Shown here: one piece after another, positions 41,515 through 51,423 of the stretch
Layout: each line of letters starts with the position of its first letter
Position numbering within the stretch: position 1 is the stretch's first letter
Assembly: GCF_002847285.1 (NCBI RefSeq)
Contig: NZ_CP025407.1
Span: 3,422,501 to 3,486,500 of the forward strand
Length of the DNA: 64,000 nt
Origin: Streptomyces sp. CMB-StM0423
GTDB taxonomy: Bacteria > Actinomycetota > Actinomycetes > Streptomycetales > Streptomycetaceae
Reading direction: 5' to 3'
Translations under genes and position numbers: made by a program
The notes under the pieces: generated by a model
The model's input: only the letters and a program-made list of their open reading frames with translations
Told to the model about the DNA's origin: nothing
The model's database searches: none

Positions 41515-41591
41515 GCGTCAGGCGTCAGGCGTCAGGCGTCAGGCGTCAGGCGTCAGGCGTCAGGCGTCAGGCGTCAGGCGTCAGGCGTCAG
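41515..41591. repeat. Eleven perfect tandem copies of the heptamer GCGTCAG
   Basis: GCGTCAG is repeated 11 times without a mismatch over 77 bp. The last copy supplies the TGA stop codon (41588-41590, minus strand) of the CYP154-like gene. Because 7 is not a multiple of 3, loss or gain of units in the coding end would alter the P450 C-terminus. Perfect identity suggests recent slippage expansion. Confidence 0.95.
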
Positions 41592-42859
41592 GTGAGGCGT
41601 ACCGGGAAGGACTCCAGGTCGTTCTGCGTCAGCACCGGCAAGTTGCGCAGCTCCCCCAGCGGTGCCGCCGCCCGCAGGTCCGGGAACCGGGCGAAGAGCG
41701 CCGGCAGCGCCACCGCCGCCTCCAGCCGCGACAGCGCCGCGCCGGGGCAGATGTGCGGCCCGTGTCCGAAGGTCATGTGCCGGATCGGCGTCGCCCGCGT
41801 CACGTCGAAGGCGTCCACGTCCGCCCCGTGGTGCCCGGCGTCCCGCCCGATCGCGCGGTACGAGATGACGACGCCCTCCCCCTTCTCGATCACCGTGCCC
41901 GCGATCTCGATGTCCTCCGTCGCGAACCGCATCAGCAGGTGGGTCACCGGCGGGTCGTAGCGCAGCGCCTCCTCGATCGCCGTCTCCCACGTCACCTTGC
42001 CCTCGCGGACCATGCCGAGCTGCTCGGGGTGGGTCAGCAGTCCGCGCACGGTGGTGAGCAGGAGCGTGATCGTGGTCTCGTGCCCGGCCGCGATCATGGA
42101 CTTCAGGTTGCCGACGACCTCTTCCTCGGTCAGCGGCTCGCCGCCCTCGTCGGCGAGGATCAGCGCGCTCGTGAGGTCGTCGGCGGGCTCGGCGGTCTTC
42201 TGCCGCACCATGTCCGTGAACACGCGGTCGAGTTCCGCCATCACCGCGAGCCGTTCCTCCTGCGGCGTGAGCATGGAGAAGAAAGCTTTCCACAGGCGCA
42301 TCTGCCGCGGTATCTCCGATTCCGCGACGCCCATGAGCGCGCACACCACCCGCATCGGCAGCGGCTGCGCGAAGACCTCCTTGAGGTCGACCACCCCGTC
42401 GCCCCCGGCCGCCGCGGCCGCCAGGGAGTCCAGCAGTTCGGCCGTCACCCGCTCGACCACCGGCCGCAGCGCGTCGAGCCGCCGCGGGGTGATGGCCTGC
42501 GCCGTCTTGGCGCGCAGCCGCCGGTGCTCGGGGCCGTCGACCGTGAACATCGACCGGCCCGGGTCGACCATCCCGATCAGCGGCCACTCCGCGGTGACCT
42601 CGCCGGTCTGCCACAGCCGCCAGGCGCCGATGTCCTTGACCAGCCGGGCGTCGGTGAGCAGTTGGCGGGCCTCGGCGTGCCGCGTGACGGTCCACGCGGG
42701 CGCGCCGAGCAGTTCGATCCGGGTGAGCGGGGCGGCGGCGCGCAGGAGCGCGGTCTCGCCCGCGAGGTCGCGTACGAGCGGGTCGATGGCCAGCGGCCCG
42801 GGGAGGGCCCCGGAGCCGGTCGGGGCGGCGGCGGAGCCGGCGGCGTGCGGGCAGTTCAC
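41588..42859 (-). CDS. Cytochrome P450, CYP154-like (conservon-linked)
   Basis: A 423-residue soluble bacterial P450 with all canonical motifs: AAGHETTITLLL (I-helix acid-alcohol pair), EEALRYDPPV (K-helix ExxR) and FGHGPHICPGAALSR with the haem-ligating Cys near residue 371. Its ATG overlaps the stop of the CYP157-like gene (ATGA), placing it last in the six-gene conservon operon. CYP154/CYP157 pairs follow conservons in S. coelicolor and some CYP154 enzymes hydroxylate polycyclic substrates; the substrate here is unknown. Its stop codon lies in a heptamer repeat array. Confidence 0.88.
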   Translation of the reverse strand: MNCPHAAGSAAAPTGSGALPGPLAIDPLVRDLAGETALLRAAAPLTRIELLGAPAWTVTRHAEARQLLTDARLVKDIGAWRLWQTGEVTAEWPLIGMVDPGRSMFTVDGPEHRRLRAKTAQAITPRRLDALRPVVERVTAELLDSLAAAAAGGDGVVDLKEVFAQPLPMRVVCALMGVAESEIPRQMRLWKAFFSMLTPQEERLAVMAELDRVFTDMVRQKTAEPADDLTSALILADEGGEPLTEEEVVGNLKSMIAAGHETTITLLLTTVRGLLTHPEQLGMVREGKVTWETAIEEALRYDPPVTHLLMRFATEDIEIAGTVIEKGEGVVISYRAIGRDAGHHGADVDAFDVTRATPIRHMTFGHGPHICPGAALSRLEAAVALPALFARFPDLRAAAPLGELRNLPVLTQNDLESFPVRLT

Positions 42860-44367
42860 GGATGACCTCCTGCAGCGCGTACGGGGGTGAAGGTGACCGG
42901 CAGTGCGGTCATGCCGCGCAGGAACGCGGACGGCCGCCGCACCAGCGTCCGGGCCGGCACGGACAGGTCCAGGTCGGGCAGCCGGTCGAGGAGTACCTCA
43001 AGGCCCGTCCGGGCGATGATCTCAGCGATCTCCTGGGCCGGGAAGGGGCAGCGGAAGTCGCCGTAGCTGAAGGCGAAGTGGGCGCTGTTGCCGGCCTGTG
43101 CGGGTACGCCGGCGCCTCCGTACCCGTATCCGCCGCCCGTGCTGCCCGGCCCGCCGAGGGCCTGCTGGATCTGCGGGTCGTCGTTGGCGGCGGCGAGGCC
43201 GAGGAGCAGCAGGTCGCCGGCGCCGACCGGGCGGCCGCCGAGGTGGGTGTCGCGGGCGGCCCAGCGGCCGACGAGGATCTGGGTGGGGGTGTCCTCCCAC
43301 AGCACCTCGTTCATGGCCTGGCCGACGCTGTGCCGCCCGCCGCCGAGGGCGGCGGCGAAGCGGTCGTCGGTGAGCATGAGGCGGATGGAGTTGCCGATCC
43401 AGTCGGCGGTGGGGAGGAAGCCGGCGGCGGTGGTGTCCTTGAGGTCGAGCATGACCTCTTCGTCGGTGAAGTGCATGGGATCGGCGAGCATCCGCGAGGT
43501 GACGTCCTGGCCGGGCGCGAGCCGTTTCTCGGCGACCAGCCGGGTCATGTGCTCGACGAAGGTCTCGTACGCCTTGAGCGCGCCGGGTCCGCCGTCCGCG
43601 AGTTCGTTGAGGACCTGGGCGAGTTGGCGTCCCTGGGCGTCGGGGAAGCCGATGAGGCGGGCGAGGACGAGGACGGGGAGGGGGACGGCGTAGTCGCCGA
43701 CGAGTTCTGCGCTGCCGCGGGAGCAGAAGGAGTCGATGAGCCGGTCGGCGAGTTGTTCGCAGTGCCGGCGGAGGTCGAAGGGGTCGACGCTTTCCAGTGC
43801 GGCGCCGACCATGACGGCGTGCCTGCGGTGGTCGGCGGCGGAGGCGGTGAAGTGGATGGACGGCATGACCTGGCCGACCATCGGCAGCAGGGGCCAGTCG
43901 GGCGGGATCTTCTCCCACTGGTTCCACAGCCCGCGGTCCCGTGGGAACAGTTCGGGGTCGGAGGTGACCTGGTGGAGTTCGCGGTAGCCGATGACGAGCC
44001 AGGCGGGGATGTCGCCGGGGAGTTCGACGGGGACGACGGGGCCGTGGTCGCGGCGCATCTCGCGGTAGAGGTCGCGCGGGTCGGTGTGGAAGCGGGGGCC
44101 GCTGAGGGGTACGGACCCGGCGGCGCCGGCGTGCGCGGGGCAGCCGGCGGGGGGTGCGTCGGCAGCGGGGGGCGTGTCGGGGCCGTCGGGCGCGGGCCCG
44201 TCGGCCGGCGCACCCGGCGCGGTGCCCGGCGCACCCGGCCCGGCCGACGGCTCACCGGGCGCATCCGGCGCACCGGGCGCAGGGGCCTCGCTCAGCGCGC
44301 CTGTGCGCGGTTGCGCCGGGCTGCTGCTCCCCTCGTGTGCGGCCTGGTCGTCGGGAGTCGGGGTCAT
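42856..44367 (-). CDS. Atypical cytochrome P450, CYP157-like, lacking ExxR
   Basis: A 503-residue P450 with a Pro/Ala/Gly-rich N-terminal extension of about 80 residues. The haem-binding loop is FSYGDFRCPFPAQ (Cys near residue 440), but the K-helix ExxR is replaced by ExLW (NEVLWEDTP near 354), and the I-helix acid-alcohol pair is replaced by AAGFLPTADW. CYP157 members of S. coelicolor are known for losing ExxR (EQSLW). A Gly/Tyr-rich insert (about 405-425) precedes the haem loop. ATGA overlaps at both ends couple it to cvnD and the CYP154-like gene. It may act as a partner or use a noncanonical fold. Confidence 0.82.
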   Translation of the reverse strand: MTPTPDDQAAHEGSSSPAQPRTGALSEAPAPGAPDAPGEPSAGPGAPGTAPGAPADGPAPDGPDTPPAADAPPAGCPAHAGAAGSVPLSGPRFHTDPRDLYREMRRDHGPVVPVELPGDIPAWLVIGYRELHQVTSDPELFPRDRGLWNQWEKIPPDWPLLPMVGQVMPSIHFTASAADHRRHAVMVGAALESVDPFDLRRHCEQLADRLIDSFCSRGSAELVGDYAVPLPVLVLARLIGFPDAQGRQLAQVLNELADGGPGALKAYETFVEHMTRLVAEKRLAPGQDVTSRMLADPMHFTDEEVMLDLKDTTAAGFLPTADWIGNSIRLMLTDDRFAAALGGGRHSVGQAMNEVLWEDTPTQILVGRWAARDTHLGGRPVGAGDLLLLGLAAANDDPQIQQALGGPGSTGGGYGYGGAGVPAQAGNSAHFAFSYGDFRCPFPAQEIAEIIARTGLEVLLDRLPDLDLSVPARTLVRRPSAFLRGMTALPVTFTPVRAAGGHP

Positions 44368-45062
44368 GTCGCGGTCTCCGGTGCGGTGGGGACGGTGGCT
44401 GCGGCTGAAGCTGCGGCGCCGGCGGCGGTCGCGGCGGTGGCCGTGCCGGCGGCGAGCCGCTGCAGGTGCTCGACGAGGGCGATCAGCACGCCCTTGCTTG
44501 ACTCGCGGGACCGCGCGTCGCAGTCGACCAGCGGGACGTGCGGGTCGAGGTCGAGCGCTTCGCGTACTTCTGCGCTGGTGTAGGGCGGGCCGCCGAAGTC
44601 GTTGCGGGCGACGATGAACGGCGTGCCGTGGTGCTCCAGCCGGTCGATGGCGTACCAGGAGTCGGCGAGCCTGCGGTGGTCGACGAGGACGATCGCGCCG
44701 AGGGTGCCGGAGAACAGCCGGTCCCAGAGGAACCAGAAGCGTTCCTGTCCGGGTGCTCCGAAGAGGTAGAGCACGGTGCGCTCGTCCAGGCTGATCCGCC
44801 CGAAGTCGAAGGCGACCGTGGTGGCGGTCTTGCCGGGTACGGCGCTGCGGTCGTCGATGCCGCGGCCGGCGAGGGTCATCGTCTCCTCGGTGTTCAGCGG
44901 CCGGATGTCGCTGACGGAGCGGACCATGGTGGTCTTGCCGACGCCGAAGCCGCCGACGATGACGATCTTCAGCCCGTTGTCCGCGGTACGGGCCAGGGGG
45001 GCGCGCTCGGTCGCGCCGCCCGGCGCGGGGGTCGCGCGGGGGTCAGAGGTGGCGGAGTCCAA
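44364..45062 (-). CDS. cvnD: Conservon small GTPase CvnD
   Basis: A 232-residue Ras-like GTPase of the conservon type: IVIVGGFGVGKTTMVRSVSD (P-loop, near residue 35), LFGAPGQERFWFLWD (G3, DxxG region) and VARNDFGG (G4-like). The C-terminal 30 residues are Ala/Thr-rich. CvnD works with the sensor CvnA and the CvnB/CvnC proteins in a membrane complex likened to eukaryotic G-protein systems. TTG at 45062 starts inside cvnC (20-bp overlap), and its end overlaps the next P450 start (ATGA). Confidence 0.88.
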   Translation of the reverse strand: MDSATSDPRATPAPGGATERAPLARTADNGLKIVIVGGFGVGKTTMVRSVSDIRPLNTEETMTLAGRGIDDRSAVPGKTATTVAFDFGRISLDERTVLYLFGAPGQERFWFLWDRLFSGTLGAIVLVDHRRLADSWYAIDRLEHHGTPFIVARNDFGGPPYTSAEVREALDLDPHVPLVDCDARSRESSKGVLIALVEHLQRLAAGTATAATAAGAAASAAATVPTAPETAT

Positions 45063-45411
45063 CGAGCACCTTCTCCAGAGTCTCGGGATCGGCGAACCGG
45101 ACGCCGCCCGGTGTGCGCGGGGGCGCGTACCGCGGGTGGCGGGCGGTGATCCGGCCGGCGGCCAGCAGGTCGGACAGCAGGATCTTGGTGATGCCGACGG
45201 GCAGTCCGAGGTCGGCGGACAGTTCCACCACGGCGGTCGGGGTGCGGCAGATGCGCAGGATCGCGGCGTGCTCCGACTGCATGCCCGGCGCCGGCTCGTC
45301 CTCGGCGACCACCAGGGTGACGAGGTCGAACTCGTCGCTGGCGGGCCGGCTGCGCCCTCCTGTCAGGGTGTACAGCCGGTCCGGGTCGTCGTCCCGGCCG
45401 GGGCGGGTCAT
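45043..45411 (-). CDS. cvnC: Conservon DUF742 protein CvnC
   Basis: A 122-residue DUF742 protein: DDPDRLYTLTGGRSRPASDE at the N-terminus and a winged-helix-like body (AAILRICRTPTAVVELSADL, then ILLSDLLAAGRI). CvnC is the third component of conservon modules. The ATG at 45411 overlaps the cvnB stop (ATGA). Length is normal. Confidence 0.9.
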   Translation of the reverse strand: MTRPGRDDDPDRLYTLTGGRSRPASDEFDLVTLVVAEDEPAPGMQSEHAAILRICRTPTAVVELSADLGLPVGITKILLSDLLAAGRITARHPRYAPPRTPGGVRFADPETLEKVLVGLRHL

Positions 45412-45845
45412 TCCGCCGCGACCCCCTCGGCCGCGGGTACGGGCCCGCGGGCGGGGGCGCTGAGGTGGTCGCCGAGCTGTTCGACGAGTTCCAGCATGTT
45501 GTGTCCGACGAGCCCGGGGTCGGCCGTCTCGGCGGCGATGACGGCGACGTGGCTGCCGGAGCCGGCTTCGGCGATGAAGAGGATGCCGCCGTAGAACTCG
45601 GTCATCGACTGCCGTACGCCGCCGCTGCCGTCGCCGAACTCGACGGAGGCGCCGTGCGACAGGCTCTGGATGCCGGCGGAGATGGCGGCGAGCTGGTCGG
45701 CGCGGTCCTCGGAGAGTTCGGGCGTGTGGCAGAGCTTGAGCCCGTCGCGGGAGAGGACGAGGGCGTGCCTGGCGCCGGGCGTGCGCTCCAGCAACCCCTC
45801 CAGCAGCCAGGTCAGCCCGGTGGCCTCGGCGGGAGATTGGGTCAT
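45408..45845 (-). CDS. cvnB: Conservon roadblock/LC7 protein CvnB
   Basis: A 145-residue roadblock/LC7-domain protein: LTWLLEGLLERTPGARHALV, SRDGLKLCHT and DQLAAISAGIQSLSHGAS are typical of MglB-like GTPase regulators. It is expected to bind CvnD and modulate its GTP cycle. It overlaps cvnA and cvnC by ATGA at both ends. Confidence 0.9.
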   Translation of the reverse strand: MTQSPAEATGLTWLLEGLLERTPGARHALVLSRDGLKLCHTPELSEDRADQLAAISAGIQSLSHGASVEFGDGSGGVRQSMTEFYGGILFIAEAGSGSHVAVIAAETADPGLVGHNMLELVEQLGDHLSAPARGPVPAAEGVAAE

Positions 45846-47605
45846 CGGTCGTCCTCCGAAGGTGAAGCGGCATTGCGTGCGGGGGGTGCGGTGGAGGGGC
45901 CGTCGCCGGGCGCGGCGGGTTCCTCGCGTTCCGCGGGTCGGTCTGCTGGTGCGGGGGCTTCGGCGCGTGCGCCGTCGTCCTGCCGTACGTCGTCTGCGTC
46001 CCGTTCGGCGTCTGGGGCCGCTGCGGCGCCTGCGGCCGGTGCGTCGCCGGCCCGGCCGGTGTCGCGCTTGCGGCCGTTGACGGCGGCGACCATGGCGCCG
46101 CCCGCCGTGCTGGTGCCGCCCTCGCCGTCCGCGCCGCGCTCCTGGCCGGTCACCGCACGCCGGAAGGCGCCGAACCGGGCGGCGGAGCCGGCGGGTTCGC
46201 GCCGGCGCTGGGATCCGGTGTCGTCACCGGCGGCACCCTGGCCGCCGGTACCCGTGTCCGTGCCCGTACCGGCGGCCTCGCCCGGCGTGCCGCCGTCCGG
46301 CACTCCGCCGGGGTGTGCGCCCGCCAGCGTGCGCCCGCGGCGCCGCCGCGGCAGCGCGGCCAGCGCGAACGGGTCGTGCCCGCCGTCGCCCGCCCGCTCG
46401 TCGGCGTCCTCGCCGGCGGCGACGTCCCGCTGCCGGGGCAGCGGGAGCGGCGTGCTGCCGGTGTCCTCGGTGGGCATGGGCAGGGCCGGTGTGCGTACGG
46501 GTTCGCCGGGCCGGGCGCGGGAGATCAGCTCCTGCGGGATCATCAGCACGACGCCCGTGCCGCCGATGGCGGAGGGGCGGAACGAGACGGTCAGCCCGTG
46601 CTTCTGCGCGAGGTGCCCGACGACGGGCAGGCCGAGCCGGGTGCCGGTGAGCGTGGACAGGTCGGTGGCGGTGCCGGCGACGGCGCGCTCGGCGCGGCGC
46701 TGCGCGGCCTCGCTCATCATCAGGCCGCTGTCCTCGATGGTGACGACGGCGCCGGCGGGCACCTCCGAGACGTAGACGTGCACCTCGGTGGTGGGGGGCG
46801 AGAAGTTGCAGGCGTTGTCGAGGAGTTCGGCGAGGGCGTGCATGACGCCCTCGGCGGCGTGTCCTGCGACAGCCACTTCGGAGACGGCCCGCAGCCGCAC
46901 GCGCTGGTAGCCGGCGATCCGGCCCATGGCGCCGCGCAGGATGGACTCCATGGTGATCGGCTTCGCCCAGCGGCGGCCGGTGCGGGCGCCGCTGAGCACG
47001 GCGATGCTGTCGGCGACGCGGCCGGCCTGCGCGGTGCGGTGGTCGAGGTGGAGGAGGTCGCCGAGGACGTCGGCGTCGCCGTGGCGGTGCTCCATCTCGC
47101 GCAGGTCGGCGAGCATGCTGGTGGTGATGGCCTGCATCCGTCCTGCGGCGTTGGCGCAGGAGGCCATGGCGGCGGCGCGGCGGTTCTCGCTGCGCCGCGC
47201 TTCTTCGGCGACCTGCTGTACGGCGCGCCGGTACGCCTGGTTGTCCAACTGCGGGGCGGCGGCGAGTGCTTCGTCGACAGGCGCGCCGGCGGCGATCTTC
47301 CGCAATACCTCGGGTACGACGCGGTCGGCGAAGGCGGCGGCGGCGCCGGCCGCGGCGGCGGCGCGTTCGTCGGCGCGGGCGGCCTTGGCGCGGTAGCCGG
47401 CCGCGGCGGCGACGGCTATGCACAGCAGGACGGCGGCGGCGCAACCGGCGTAGACGATGTGCCGGGTGTGGTCCTCGGGTCCTGCGAGCGCCGCGGCCAG
47501 TACCGCGACGGCGGTCGCGGGCACCGTGACGAAGAGGGCCGGCAGTGGTGCGGGGAGTCGGGAACGCGAGGCCCGGGGCGGGGCTGCATCCTGGTGCGCG
47601 GTCAT
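45842..47605 (-). CDS. cvnA: Conservon sensor histidine-kinase-like protein CvnA
   Basis: A 587-residue membrane sensor. Two hydrophobic segments (ALFVTVPATAVAVLAAALAG; AGCAAAVLLCIAVAAAAGY) flank a short outer loop. A helical dimerisation region is followed by HATPase_c (ELLDNACNFSPPTTEVHVYV as N-box, LPVVGHLAQKHGLTVSF). The C-terminal 200 residues are disordered and charged. As in other CvnA proteins there is no clear phospho-acceptor His box, so it may act by binding rather than phosphotransfer. It heads the cvnA-B-C-D-CYP157-CYP154 operon, all junctions overlapping. Confidence 0.88.
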   Translation of the reverse strand: MTAHQDAAPPRASRSRLPAPLPALFVTVPATAVAVLAAALAGPEDHTRHIVYAGCAAAVLLCIAVAAAAGYRAKAARADERAAAAAGAAAAFADRVVPEVLRKIAAGAPVDEALAAAPQLDNQAYRRAVQQVAEEARRSENRRAAAMASCANAAGRMQAITTSMLADLREMEHRHGDADVLGDLLHLDHRTAQAGRVADSIAVLSGARTGRRWAKPITMESILRGAMGRIAGYQRVRLRAVSEVAVAGHAAEGVMHALAELLDNACNFSPPTTEVHVYVSEVPAGAVVTIEDSGLMMSEAAQRRAERAVAGTATDLSTLTGTRLGLPVVGHLAQKHGLTVSFRPSAIGGTGVVLMIPQELISRARPGEPVRTPALPMPTEDTGSTPLPLPRQRDVAAGEDADERAGDGGHDPFALAALPRRRRGRTLAGAHPGGVPDGGTPGEAAGTGTDTGTGGQGAAGDDTGSQRRREPAGSAARFGAFRRAVTGQERGADGEGGTSTAGGAMVAAVNGRKRDTGRAGDAPAAGAAAAPDAERDADDVRQDDGARAEAPAPADRPAEREEPAAPGDGPSTAPPARNAASPSEDDR

Positions 47606-48073: not shown

Positions 48074-49639
48074 ATGACCCGTTTACCCCGTACGTACGCC
48101 ACGTTCATGCTCTGCGGAGTCACGGTCGCCGCACTCACCGCGGCGGCCCCGGCCCCCGGCGCCGCCGCCCGGCCCGCCGCCGGCTCCGGCCCGGCCTCTG
48201 ACGGCGCAGCCGCCGACGGCACCGACGCCGCCCCCGGCTCCGCCGCCCCCGGCGCAGCCGCCGACCAGGCCGCCGCCGTCGACGGCGAGGACCCGCCCGG
48301 GCTCGACGTGCTCAAGCGCGGCCAGGGCATGGCCCCCGGCCTCCTCTTCCTCACCCCCCAGGGCCGCCACGAGACGCCCCGCGGCCCCCAGATCGTCGAC
48401 GACCGCGGCCGCCCGGTCTGGTACCACCGGATCCCCGCCGGCTTCGTCGCCGCCGACTTCCAGGTCCAGGAGTACCGCGGCAAGAAGGTGCTCACCTGGT
48501 GGGAAGGCGAAAGCTCCCCCACCGGCACGGGCTCGGGCACCGGATATATCGCCGACGAGAACTACGACATCATCGCCACCGTCAAGACTCCCGACGCGGG
48601 CGAGCGCACCGACTTCCACGAGTTCCGCCTCACCCCCGACGGCACGGCCCTGATCCTCAGCTACCGCGACGAGCCGTACGACCTCACCCCCGTCGGCGGA
48701 CCCGAAGACGGTCAGGTCCTCGACTACGTCGTGCAGGAGATCGACATCGCCACCGGCGAAAAGGTCATGGACTGGCACAGCCTCGACCACATCCCGATCA
48801 CCGACTCCGACCGCCGCTTCGACCCCGGCATGCCAGGCCCTTTTCCGTACATGCACCTCAACGCCGTCAGCCTCGACCACGACGGCAACCTCCTCTTCTC
48901 CGGCCGCGAGACCAGCACCATCTACAAGGTCGACCGCGAGACCGGCGAGGTCATCTGGCGGCTCGGCGGCAAGCGCAGCGACTTCCGCCTCGGCGCCGGC
49001 GCCCGCACCATCGGCCAGCACAACATCGAGCCCGCCGGCGAGAACACGTACCGCGTCTTCGACAACCAGAACATGGGCAGCCCCGGCTACGAGTCGCGGG
49101 TGGCGTGGCTGCGTATCGACGAGCAGCAGATGACCGCCGAGCTCGTACGCCAGCAGGTCCACCCGGACCGGCTGACGACCGGACTGGAGGGCAACAGCCA
49201 GGCGCTGCCCAACGGCAACACCTTCGTGAGCTGGGGCTCCCCTTCCGGCCGCATCTCCGAGTTCTCGCCCTCCGGCCAACTGGTCTTCGACAGCACGCTG
49301 CCGGAGGACATCAGCAGTTACCGCGGCTATCGCGCCCCCTGGAAGAGCACCCCCGACACCGCCCCCGAGGCCGAGGTGAACGACGCGGTCACCGCCGTCG
49401 ACGCCGTGTGGAACGGCGCGACGGAGGTCGAGGGCTGGCGGGTACTCGGCGGCGAGACGCAGTCGCGGCTGCGCCCCGTGGCGCGCGCCGGGTGGAAGGG
49501 GCTCGACACCGAAGTGCAACTGCCGCCCGAGGCCCGCGACATCGACTACGTGAAGGTCCAGGCGCTCGACGCGCGCGGCCGGGTCCTCGGGTCCTCGCCG
49601 GTCGAGGCCGTGGAGCCCGCCGCATCCCCCCACCACTGA
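48074..49639 (+). CDS. Exported arylsulfotransferase (ASST family, Cpz4-like)
   Basis: A 521-residue protein. Residues 1-32 look like a secretion signal (positively charged start, then FMLCGVTVAALTAAAPAPGA), followed by an Ala/Pro-rich linker to about 75. The rest is an arylsulfotransferase beta-propeller with repeated blades: GRPVWYHRIPAGFVAADFQV, DFHEFRLTPDGTALILSYRD, MHLNAVSLDHDGNLLFSGRE and TGEVIWRLGG. These PAPS-independent enzymes move sulfate from one phenolic ester to another. Cpz4 of caprazamycin biosynthesis is of this type. GGGAGA precedes the ATG. First of three co-directional genes with the type III PKS and a sulfotransferase. Confidence 0.82.
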   Translation: MTRLPRTYATFMLCGVTVAALTAAAPAPGAAARPAAGSGPASDGAAADGTDAAPGSAAPGAAADQAAAVDGEDPPGLDVLKRGQGMAPGLLFLTPQGRHETPRGPQIVDDRGRPVWYHRIPAGFVAADFQVQEYRGKKVLTWWEGESSPTGTGSGTGYIADENYDIIATVKTPDAGERTDFHEFRLTPDGTALILSYRDEPYDLTPVGGPEDGQVLDYVVQEIDIATGEKVMDWHSLDHIPITDSDRRFDPGMPGPFPYMHLNAVSLDHDGNLLFSGRETSTIYKVDRETGEVIWRLGGKRSDFRLGAGARTIGQHNIEPAGENTYRVFDNQNMGSPGYESRVAWLRIDEQQMTAELVRQQVHPDRLTTGLEGNSQALPNGNTFVSWGSPSGRISEFSPSGQLVFDSTLPEDISSYRGYRAPWKSTPDTAPEAEVNDAVTAVDAVWNGATEVEGWRVLGGETQSRLRPVARAGWKGLDTEVQLPPEARDIDYVKVQALDARGRVLGSSPVEAVEPAASPHH

Positions 49640-49681
49640 CAGAAGGCCGCCGACGCCTCGCACAGTCAGGAGAAGAACACG

Positions 49682-50725
49682 ATGTCCGAAGCGCGGATCG
49701 TGGCTGTCACGTTCCGGACCCCACCGCTGGTCAAGATGGAAGAGTTCGCCAACCTCGTCGCCGCGGAACCCGGAGGCGACACGGTCGCCCAGGTCATCCG
49801 GAACTCGGCGATCACCACCAAGGGCATGGCCGTGAACGCCCTGCTGGAAGACCCCCGCCGCTGGACCACGCGCCGGCGGATGGACCGCAGCCTCGCCGAG
49901 GCCCGCCACCTCGGCCGCACCACCGTCATCGCGGCGCTCGCCGAGGCCGGCCTGCGCCCGGAGGACGTGGGGCTGTTCGCCACCGTCACCACGACCACCC
50001 ACTCCGCCCCCGGCCTCGACGCCCTCGCCCCGGAACTCGGGCTGCGCCCGGACGTCGAGACGCTGTCCCTCGGCCCGATGGGCTGCTATGCGGCCGTGCC
50101 GGCGGTGTCCGCGTGCGCGCACTGGGTCGCGGCCAAGCGGCGCCCGGCGGTACTGCTCGCGGTCGACCTCTTCTCGCCGCACGTGCAGCCGCCCCCGTAC
50201 GACAAGGAACAGGCCGTCGTCCTCACGCTGTTCGGCGACGGCGCCGCGGCGGTGGTGCTGCTGCCGCCGGAGGCGGGTGAGCCCGGCGGCGTCGAGGTCG
50301 TCGACTCCGAACAGCTCACCGCGCCGGCCTACGCGGACGACCTCCAGGTGCACATGGGCGACAACGGGCTGCGTATCAGGCTCAAGCCGTCCATGCCGGA
50401 CGTCGTCGCGGGCTCCGTCGCGATTCCGGCGCGGGCGCTGCTCGCCAGGCACGGGGTCCGCTGGTCCGACGTCGCGTGGTGGGCCGTCCACCCGGGCGGC
50501 CGGCGCATCCTCGACCGGGTCGACGAGGCGCTGGGCCTGCCGGAGCGGTCGATGGCCACGGCGCGGGAGGTGATGCGGGAGTACGGCAACACCGCGGCCC
50601 CGGCGGTGCTGGCGGTGCTGCGCCGGCTGCAGACGACGCGGCCGCTGGCGGCGGGTGAGCACGGGGTGGTGCTGGCGTGCGGCCCGGGAGCGACGGTCTG
50701 GGCGCTGCTGCTGCGCGGCGCGTAG
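49682..50725 (+). CDS. Type III polyketide synthase (Cpz6-like)
   Basis: A 347-residue chalcone-synthase-fold enzyme. The catalytic triad is visible with normal spacing: Cys near residue 134 (LGPMGCYAAVP), His near 269 (WWAVHPGGRRI) and Asn near 302 (REYGNTAAP). It would condense malonyl-CoA units on an acyl starter to give pyrones or phenols. In caprazamycin biosynthesis the type III PKS makes triketide pyrones that carry sulfate between two sulfotransferases. AGGAGAAG lies before the ATG, 42 bp after the arylsulfotransferase stop. Product not predictable from sequence alone. Confidence 0.85.
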   Translation: MSEARIVAVTFRTPPLVKMEEFANLVAAEPGGDTVAQVIRNSAITTKGMAVNALLEDPRRWTTRRRMDRSLAEARHLGRTTVIAALAEAGLRPEDVGLFATVTTTTHSAPGLDALAPELGLRPDVETLSLGPMGCYAAVPAVSACAHWVAAKRRPAVLLAVDLFSPHVQPPPYDKEQAVVLTLFGDGAAAVVLLPPEAGEPGGVEVVDSEQLTAPAYADDLQVHMGDNGLRIRLKPSMPDVVAGSVAIPARALLARHGVRWSDVAWWAVHPGGRRILDRVDEALGLPERSMATAREVMREYGNTAAPAVLAVLRRLQTTRPLAAGEHGVVLACGPGATVWALLLRGA

Positions 50726-50763
50726 GGACAACGTAGGACGTCGGAAACCGAAAGGAGAAGGTG

Positions 50764-51423
50764 ATGCTGGAAGTCATCGGCGCGGGAGTCGGCCGTACGG
50801 GAACGCTGTCGCTCAAGACGGCGCTGGAACGGCTGGGCTTCGGCCCGTGTCACCACATGCTGGGCCTCTTCGAGGACCCGGAGCAGATCCCGATGTGGGA
50901 GGCGGCGTCGCGCGGCGAGTCCGTGGCCTGGCACCAGGTGTACGCACGGTACGGCTCGACGGTGGACTGGCCGGGCGCCCGCTTCTGGCGGGAGATAGCG
51001 GGGGCGTTCCCCGAGGCGAAGGTGGTGCTGACGGTACGGGACCCGGAGAGCTGGTACGCGAGCGCGGCGAGCAGCATCTACGCCACGGCGGTGGCCCCGC
51101 CCCCGCCGGACGTGGGCGAGGGCTTCGTACGGCTTCGGGACATGTCGCTTGAGGTGATCTGGGACGGCGTGTTCGACGGCCGGTTCACGGAGAAGGAGCA
51201 CGCGCTGAAGGTCTTCGCGGAGCACGAGGCGGCGGTGCGGGAGGAGATACCCGCGGACCGGTTGCTGGTGTTCCGGGTGAGCGAGGGCTGGGAGCCGCTG
51301 TGCGACTTCCTGGGAGTGCCGGTGCCGGACGAACCGTTCCCGAGGAGCAACGAGCGGGGCAGGTTCGTGGACGAGGTGAGGGAGCGCAGCGGGGCGGCAG
51401 GCGGGGGAGACGCCGCGGGGTGA
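50764..51423 (+). CDS. PAPS-dependent sulfotransferase family protein (Cpz8-like)
   Basis: A 219-residue Sulfotransfer_4-type protein: VIGAGVGRTGTLSLKTALER is the 5'-phosphosulfate loop, and VVLTVRDPESWYASAASS is the 3'-phosphate-binding region near residue 85. It should transfer sulfate from PAPS to a small acceptor in the cytosol. With the type III PKS just upstream (38-bp gap, AAAGGAG before the ATG), the obvious acceptor is the PKS product. The exported arylsulfotransferase could then pass that sulfate on. Last gene before a 2.5-kb gene-free stretch. Confidence 0.82.
   Translation: MLEVIGAGVGRTGTLSLKTALERLGFGPCHHMLGLFEDPEQIPMWEAASRGESVAWHQVYARYGSTVDWPGARFWREIAGAFPEAKVVLTVRDPESWYASAASSIYATAVAPPPPDVGEGFVRLRDMSLEVIWDGVFDGRFTEKEHALKVFAEHEAAVREEIPADRLLVFRVSEGWEPLCDFLGVPVPDEPFPRSNERGRFVDEVRERSGAAGGGDAAG

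Follow-up and report, generated by a model that had tools for sequence, protein, structure and literature searches.

A compact three-gene operon of Streptomyces predicted to run a caprazamycin-like sulfation relay, with a type V glycopeptide-like nonapeptide as its candidate acceptor

A 2026 review notes that more than 40 years have passed without the identification of a natural substrate for arylsulfate sulfotransferases (ASSTs), and singles out Cpz4, of the caprazamycin system, as the enzyme whose role is well established (PMC13426309). ASSTs have also been noted in glycopeptide clusters, as aba19 of Amycolatopsis bartoniae and as Teg19 (PMC11727664). A different sulfation system is that of the adipostatins, whose cluster is laid out as AdpPKS, AdpST and genes for 3'-phosphoadenosine-5'-phosphosulfate (PAPS), and in which the sulfated product is the end product (PMC12135136). 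Here we describe an operon for an ASST, a type III polyketide synthase (PKS) and a sulfotransferase (ST) in Streptomyces sp. CMB-StM0423, at positions 48,074 to 51,423 of the window, a 64,000-nucleotide stretch of contig NZ_CP025407.1 (positions 3,422,501 to 3,486,500). The original prediction for this DNA was of a stand-alone sulfation relay of the caprazamycin type, with counterparts of Cpz4, Cpz6 and Cpz8 and a final acceptor outside the membrane. Our comparison points to a Cpz-like relay with a non-orthologous carrier PKS, and we favor, with modest confidence, a type V glycopeptide-like nonapeptide of the GP6738 type, reached in trans, as the acceptor.

The three open reading frames lie on one strand (plus), all score as coding, and constitute a compact operon, which confirms the original observation. 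The gaps are 42 bp between ASST and PKS and 38 bp between PKS and ST, with Shine-Dalgarno-like sites present. The first gene (48074..49639) encodes a Cpz4-like ASST of 521 aa (PF14269, E=3.7e-44) with a signal-like N-terminus, the second (49682..50725) a type III PKS of 347 aa (PF02797/PF00195), and the third (50764..51423) a Cpz8-like, PAPS-dependent ST of 219 aa (Sulfotransfer_4; PF17784, E=2.7e-63). The ATG at 50764 is preferred over the GTG at 50761 as the ST start, because relatives of this protein start with M-L-E. PF17784 STs are rare, occurring in 26 of 393 sampled Streptomyces, and this one is the sole member in its genome. The adenosine-5'-phosphosulfate kinase of this genome is at 6.57 Mb, far from the trio.

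For two of the three proteins, the best solved relatives are caprazamycin enzymes. The ASST matches Cpz4 (PDB 9kf4, 9kf6; E=2.6e-92) at 43% identity by local search and 36-39% by structure, and the ST matches Cpz8 (PDB 9kf1, 9kf2; E=7.7e-62) at 49% identity; the entries were assigned to Cpz4 and Cpz8 from their titles. The structure model of the ASST was moderate (predicted local distance difference test score, pLDDT, 60) and that of the ST poor (pLDDT 51.5), matches of the latter being used for titles only. In its tree the ST falls in the Cpz8/SgdX2 part of PF17784, not specifically as sister to Cpz8. With Cpz4 as the query, one of 395 genomes sampled in the family, the Streptomyces genome G528, has an ortholog (84%), near an 87% Cpz8 ortholog and a PKS with an inositol-phosphatase-family gene between them. 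This locus (L112-L114) also carries serine hydroxymethyltransferase (SHMT)-, TauD- and nucleoside-phosphorylase-like genes, as expected for a liponucleoside cluster. Its PKS, phosphatase and ST are oriented opposite to the ASST, in agreement with the published divergent cpz5/cpz6 promoter (PMC12093943). In contrast, the trio in the window is compact and co-directional, with no phosphatase gene in between, and the liponucleoside genes have no counterpart in the genome, as had been claimed for the neighborhood: the SHMT-like protein of the G528 cluster finds matches of only 29-30%. A literature search, mostly without subscription papers, found no report of such a trio lacking liponucleoside genes.

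Export of the ASST, also part of the original prediction, is supported by its N-terminus. Residues 1 to about 30 (48074..48163, plus strand) pass a home-made rule of charge, hydrophobic core and AxA motif, simpler than SignalP, which is passed by 51 of 710 background genes, 0 of 36 PKS genes and 0 of 22 ST genes. All 11 compact-trio ASSTs with a resolved start pass, and three cluster-embedded Actinomadura ASSTs fail. Because the Cpz4 ortholog of G528 passes as well, predicted export is a trait in common with Cpz4, and we rejected the signal peptide as a feature that sets the cassette apart.

The ASST-PKS-ST arrangement is more than chance, because order and strand recur: they are shared by eight distinct loci of Streptomyces and are found again in Actinomadura and Actinoallomurus. 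At 73% identity or more, the PKS occurs in 5 of the 393 sampled Streptomyces (this genome included), always as ASST-PKS-ST; the further trios of Streptomyces, Actinomadura and Actinoallomurus came from a scan of named genomes. The ASST is conserved across all compact trios. Protein distances of ASST, PKS and ST correlate over 15 loci (Mantel r 0.88-0.92, 0 of 2000 permutations), a correlation that also contains species history, and the three trees concur in their main clades. By these measures, the trio is co-inherited in the three genera. In some Actinomadura the PKS-ST pair adjoins CysD/CysN-type sulfate-activation genes, which speaks for a part in sulfation. One trio is decayed, with a short fused ASST-PKS remnant followed by an intact ST (G104; L127, 1450-2629).

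The trio genomes offer a lead to the acceptor, which had been left as some cell-envelope molecule or secreted metabolite. Each of the eight distinct Streptomyces trio genomes encodes a DpgA that shares 81% identity or more with that of this genome, the three beyond the sample being S. aculeolatus (96%), S.PNR 29 (84%) and S. fumanus (81%). Such a DpgA also occurs in Actinomadura sp. NBRC 104425 (80%), the strain whose PKS falls with those of the Streptomyces trios in the tree (94/91). Within the sample, DpgA at 76% or more is found in 25 of the 393 Streptomyces but in 5 of 5 trio genomes; the hypergeometric values for this enrichment (p=7e-7, or 2e-4 if the five trio genomes stand for three lineages) are descriptive and rough, since the lead was found after looking and the sampled genomes share ancestry. 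A type V glycopeptide-like cluster surrounds the trio in S. fumanus: HpgT flanks it on one side, DpgA-C coming right after, and ABC transporter, MacAB and P450 genes flank it on the other. The G100 trio lies at the edge of its cluster, whose genes include DpgA-C, HpgT, three P450s and large nonribosomal peptide synthetases (NRPSs); the genes beside the trio that are alike in these two genomes are MbtH, an ABC transporter and a MacAB-like set. In G195 the trio comes after a MacB gene, at the opposite end of a glycopeptide-like cluster. The label "stand-alone" is thus misleading, and the field of acceptors is narrowed to the extent that clusters of this type accompany the trio and, in relatives, contain or adjoin it.

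The genome under study has such a cluster of its own (G000:C1:517495-580924). It carries the precursor genes HmaS, Hmo, Pdh, HpgT and DpgA-C; five NRPS genes with nine A-domain cores, or modules, and a terminal C-A-T-C(X)-TE protein; MbtH; and two-component genes, an ABC transporter, two P450s, a ferredoxin, MacAB, and StrR-like and LmbU-like genes, the last two called by reading the sequence. GP6738, a type V nonapeptide, has two cross-links and comes from a cluster with two P450s and strR/lmbU regulators (PMC7567792). The cluster here fits that description in its nine modules, two P450s and StrR plus LmbU, the comparison being by description and not by sequence. The aba19 and Teg19 clusters provide a further likeness, a Cpz4-like ASST in a glycopeptide cluster with predicted peptide sulfation, but a PKS-ST carrier pair is not mentioned for them (PMC11727664), whereas here the full cassette is present, though not linked to the cluster in this genome.

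From these comparisons we infer the following relay. The PKS would make a small aromatic carrier, a phenol or a pyrone, which the cytosolic ST would sulfate with PAPS as the donor. The sulfated carrier would then leave the cell, and the exported ASST would pick up its sulfuryl group, hold it as a sulfo-histidine and pass it to the acceptor. Here and in the Streptomyces relatives, that acceptor would be the phenol-rich type V nonapeptide of the 517-581 kb cluster or its equivalent, modified in trans outside the membrane.

Several points weigh against the nonapeptide as acceptor. The trio and the cluster are 2.9 Mb apart in this genome, and the operon contains no carrier exporter. Of the 25 sampled Streptomyces that have a DpgA of this subclass, 20 have no trio. 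GP6738 itself was isolated without sulfate, though the cloned cluster apparently lacked the trio (PMC7567792). Moreover, acceptors may be several, because another ASST from this lineage is encoded at 6.19 Mb of the genome (G000:C1:6194784-6196127; locus L042, 9120-10652), 61% identical to the first and with no PKS or ST beside it. The tree shows it to have arisen by duplication within the lineage of the trio, and two transferases may therefore draw on one donor system.

Some weight goes to a relay that is real but has another acceptor, such as a cell-envelope molecule or another metabolite, the glycopeptide link then reflecting shared ancestry or habitat of the strains. Trio and cluster are unlinked here and in four other Streptomyces. 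Most Actinomadura have the PKS-ST pair inside another conserved cluster, with the ASST a few kb off or not seen, and that cluster is probably a second acceptor pathway. In L096, L098, L105 and related Actinomadura loci it combines the pair with genes for an aromatic amino acid lyase, an acyltransferase, an inositol-1-phosphate-synthase-like protein, DegT aminotransferases, an acyl carrier protein, a thioesterase and a condensation domain. Actinoallomurus relatives, too, have the pair in clusters of another kind that lack DpgA. Apart from Actinomadura sp. NBRC 104425, no such DpgA was found in the Actinomadura and the two Actinoallomurus tested, except in A. macra (81%). We nevertheless consider another acceptor the less likely case, given that the trio is found within or next to the cluster in three lineages of Streptomyces, each time arranged differently, and that none of the eight Streptomyces trio genomes lacks the DpgA.

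The PKS, predicted to be the counterpart of Cpz6, belongs to a different lineage. As stand-ins for Cpz6 we used the G528 ortholog and a VioA-like PKS from Streptomyces phage ZL12, which are 51% identical to each other; VioA and Cpz6 share 53% identity (PMC4924298). The window PKS is 23% identical to the G528 protein, and a joint clade with Cpz6-type PKSs is rejected by the approximately unbiased (AU) test (p=0.000245). In the tree, which includes two RppA-like rows, it stands with PKSs of PKS-ST-CysC-CysD-CysN cassettes on a 98/97 branch, Cpz6/VioA being placed elsewhere. Below that branch, the window PKS and the PKSs of adipostatin (adp)-type cassettes, with the AdpPKS sequence itself not in the tree, form neighboring clades; at 42-44% identity the latter are its nearest large group. 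Long branches in this tree make the exact placement less certain than the rejection of a Cpz6 clade. The carrier is probably not a presulficidin, because the PKS groups apart from Cpz6/VioA; from the tree neighborhood, our guess would be an alkylresorcinol-like phenol. The predicted correspondence to the Cpz enzymes thus stands for the ASST and the ST, and fails for the PKS.

The adp-type cassettes were seen at seven Streptomyces loci (L034-L039, L041), ordered MmpL-PKS-ST-CysC-CysD-CysN-transporter; they resemble the adipostatin sulfation cassette and are so called by gene order, not by comparison with AdpPKS. Since the window PKS is nearest to theirs, its sulfated polyketide might be the end product, as with the sulfated adipostatins (PMC12135136), and the ASST would only redistribute sulfate among PKS products or remove it. 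This is improbable. The ST of the adp-like cassettes is of the Sulfotransfer_3/1 type (PF13469/PF00685), whereas that of the trio is Cpz8-like (PF17784); the cassettes have PAPS genes of their own and no ASST, whereas the trio has no PAPS genes beside its PKS and an ASST that is co-inherited and predicted to be exported. A further reading, in which the operon is a plain ortholog of the caprazamycin relay and its carriers are presulficidin-type triketide pyrones, would suit the homology to Cpz4 and Cpz8 but is very hard to reconcile with the distant PKS, set apart from a Cpz6 ortholog that groups with VioA-like enzymes, and with the different gene order.

Conserved residues can be given putative roles in all three proteins. 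The PKS has the predicted Cys-His-Asn triad, as Cys135 (the nucleophile; 50084..50086), His270 (50489..50491) and Asn303 (50588..50590), all invariant in 40 rows. The ST has a G-R-T-G-T motif (50791..50805), kept in all trio STs, Cpz8 and SgdX2, which from knowledge of the family we take to be PAPS-binding. Putative active-site residues of the ASST are His182 (48617..48619), invariant in every row covering it, Cpz4 included, His261-x-Asn263 (48854..48862), and His316 (49019..49021), a putative sulfo-histidine; the latter two are invariant in 38 rows. All are on the plus strand. The active-site residues of the Escherichia coli ASST are His252, His356, Asn358 and His436 (PMC13426309). Judged by motif and order, with no residue-level alignment, His316 likely corresponds to His436, His261-x-Asn263 resembles His356-x-Asn358, and His182 resembles His252.

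Codon 4 of the ASST gene is a TTA leucine codon (48083..48085, plus strand). In 6 of the 8 distinct Streptomyces trios the ASST gene has one TTA within its first 11 codons (at codon 11, not 5, in G100), with none elsewhere in the trio, and the remaining two have CTA at the matching leucine. Early TTA codons occur in 0-4 of 461 background genes, depending on start choice. Because so rare a codon stands near the ASST start in six of the eight loci, bldA control of this gene is a reasonable inference. Two genes of the glycopeptide-like cluster of this genome also have a TTA.

A conservon that includes a P450 gene, together with another gene of P450-like type, runs divergently from the trio (41588-47605) and had been proposed to supply or regulate the cassette. 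It adjoins the trio only in close relatives of the window and is missing beside it in 4 of the 8 Streptomyces loci, and we rejected it as part of the system. Co-occurrence of the trio with a second ASST was likewise dropped as a signal: in the window's clade the second copy is a duplication, and in G100 and G195 it comes from a distant group. Other Streptomyces ASSTs were rejected as a sign of more trios, their loci having no PKS or ST alongside. On a Rubrobacter tropicus plasmid (NZ_CP045120.1; L088, 4208-9329), a Cpz4-like ASST gene immediately follows a pair of sulfatase genes, an arrangement suggestive of a different setting for sulfate handling. In phage ZL12 (L111, 1910-3253), a phage- or plasmid-borne type III PKS adjoins a regulator, like the vioA-vioB pair.

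The cassette gives an ASST its own donor-making enzymes, and comparative genomics proposes a concrete acceptor for it; the three genes and a previously cloned cluster would suffice to test donor, relay and acceptor. Tentatively, and with more doubt than we attach to the acceptor in this genome, we suggest that actinomycetes may have built the relay from PAPS through an aryl sulfate to an ASST on two unrelated carrier PKS lineages. In its second form the relay would be portable, timed by development and extracytoplasmic, and would complete type V glycopeptide antibiotics in trans; GP6738-like compounds would then be unfinished forms of a sulfated product. If this is true, the boundaries of a biosynthetic cluster can conceal tailoring steps encoded megabases off, and the carrier PKS of such relays would be exchangeable.

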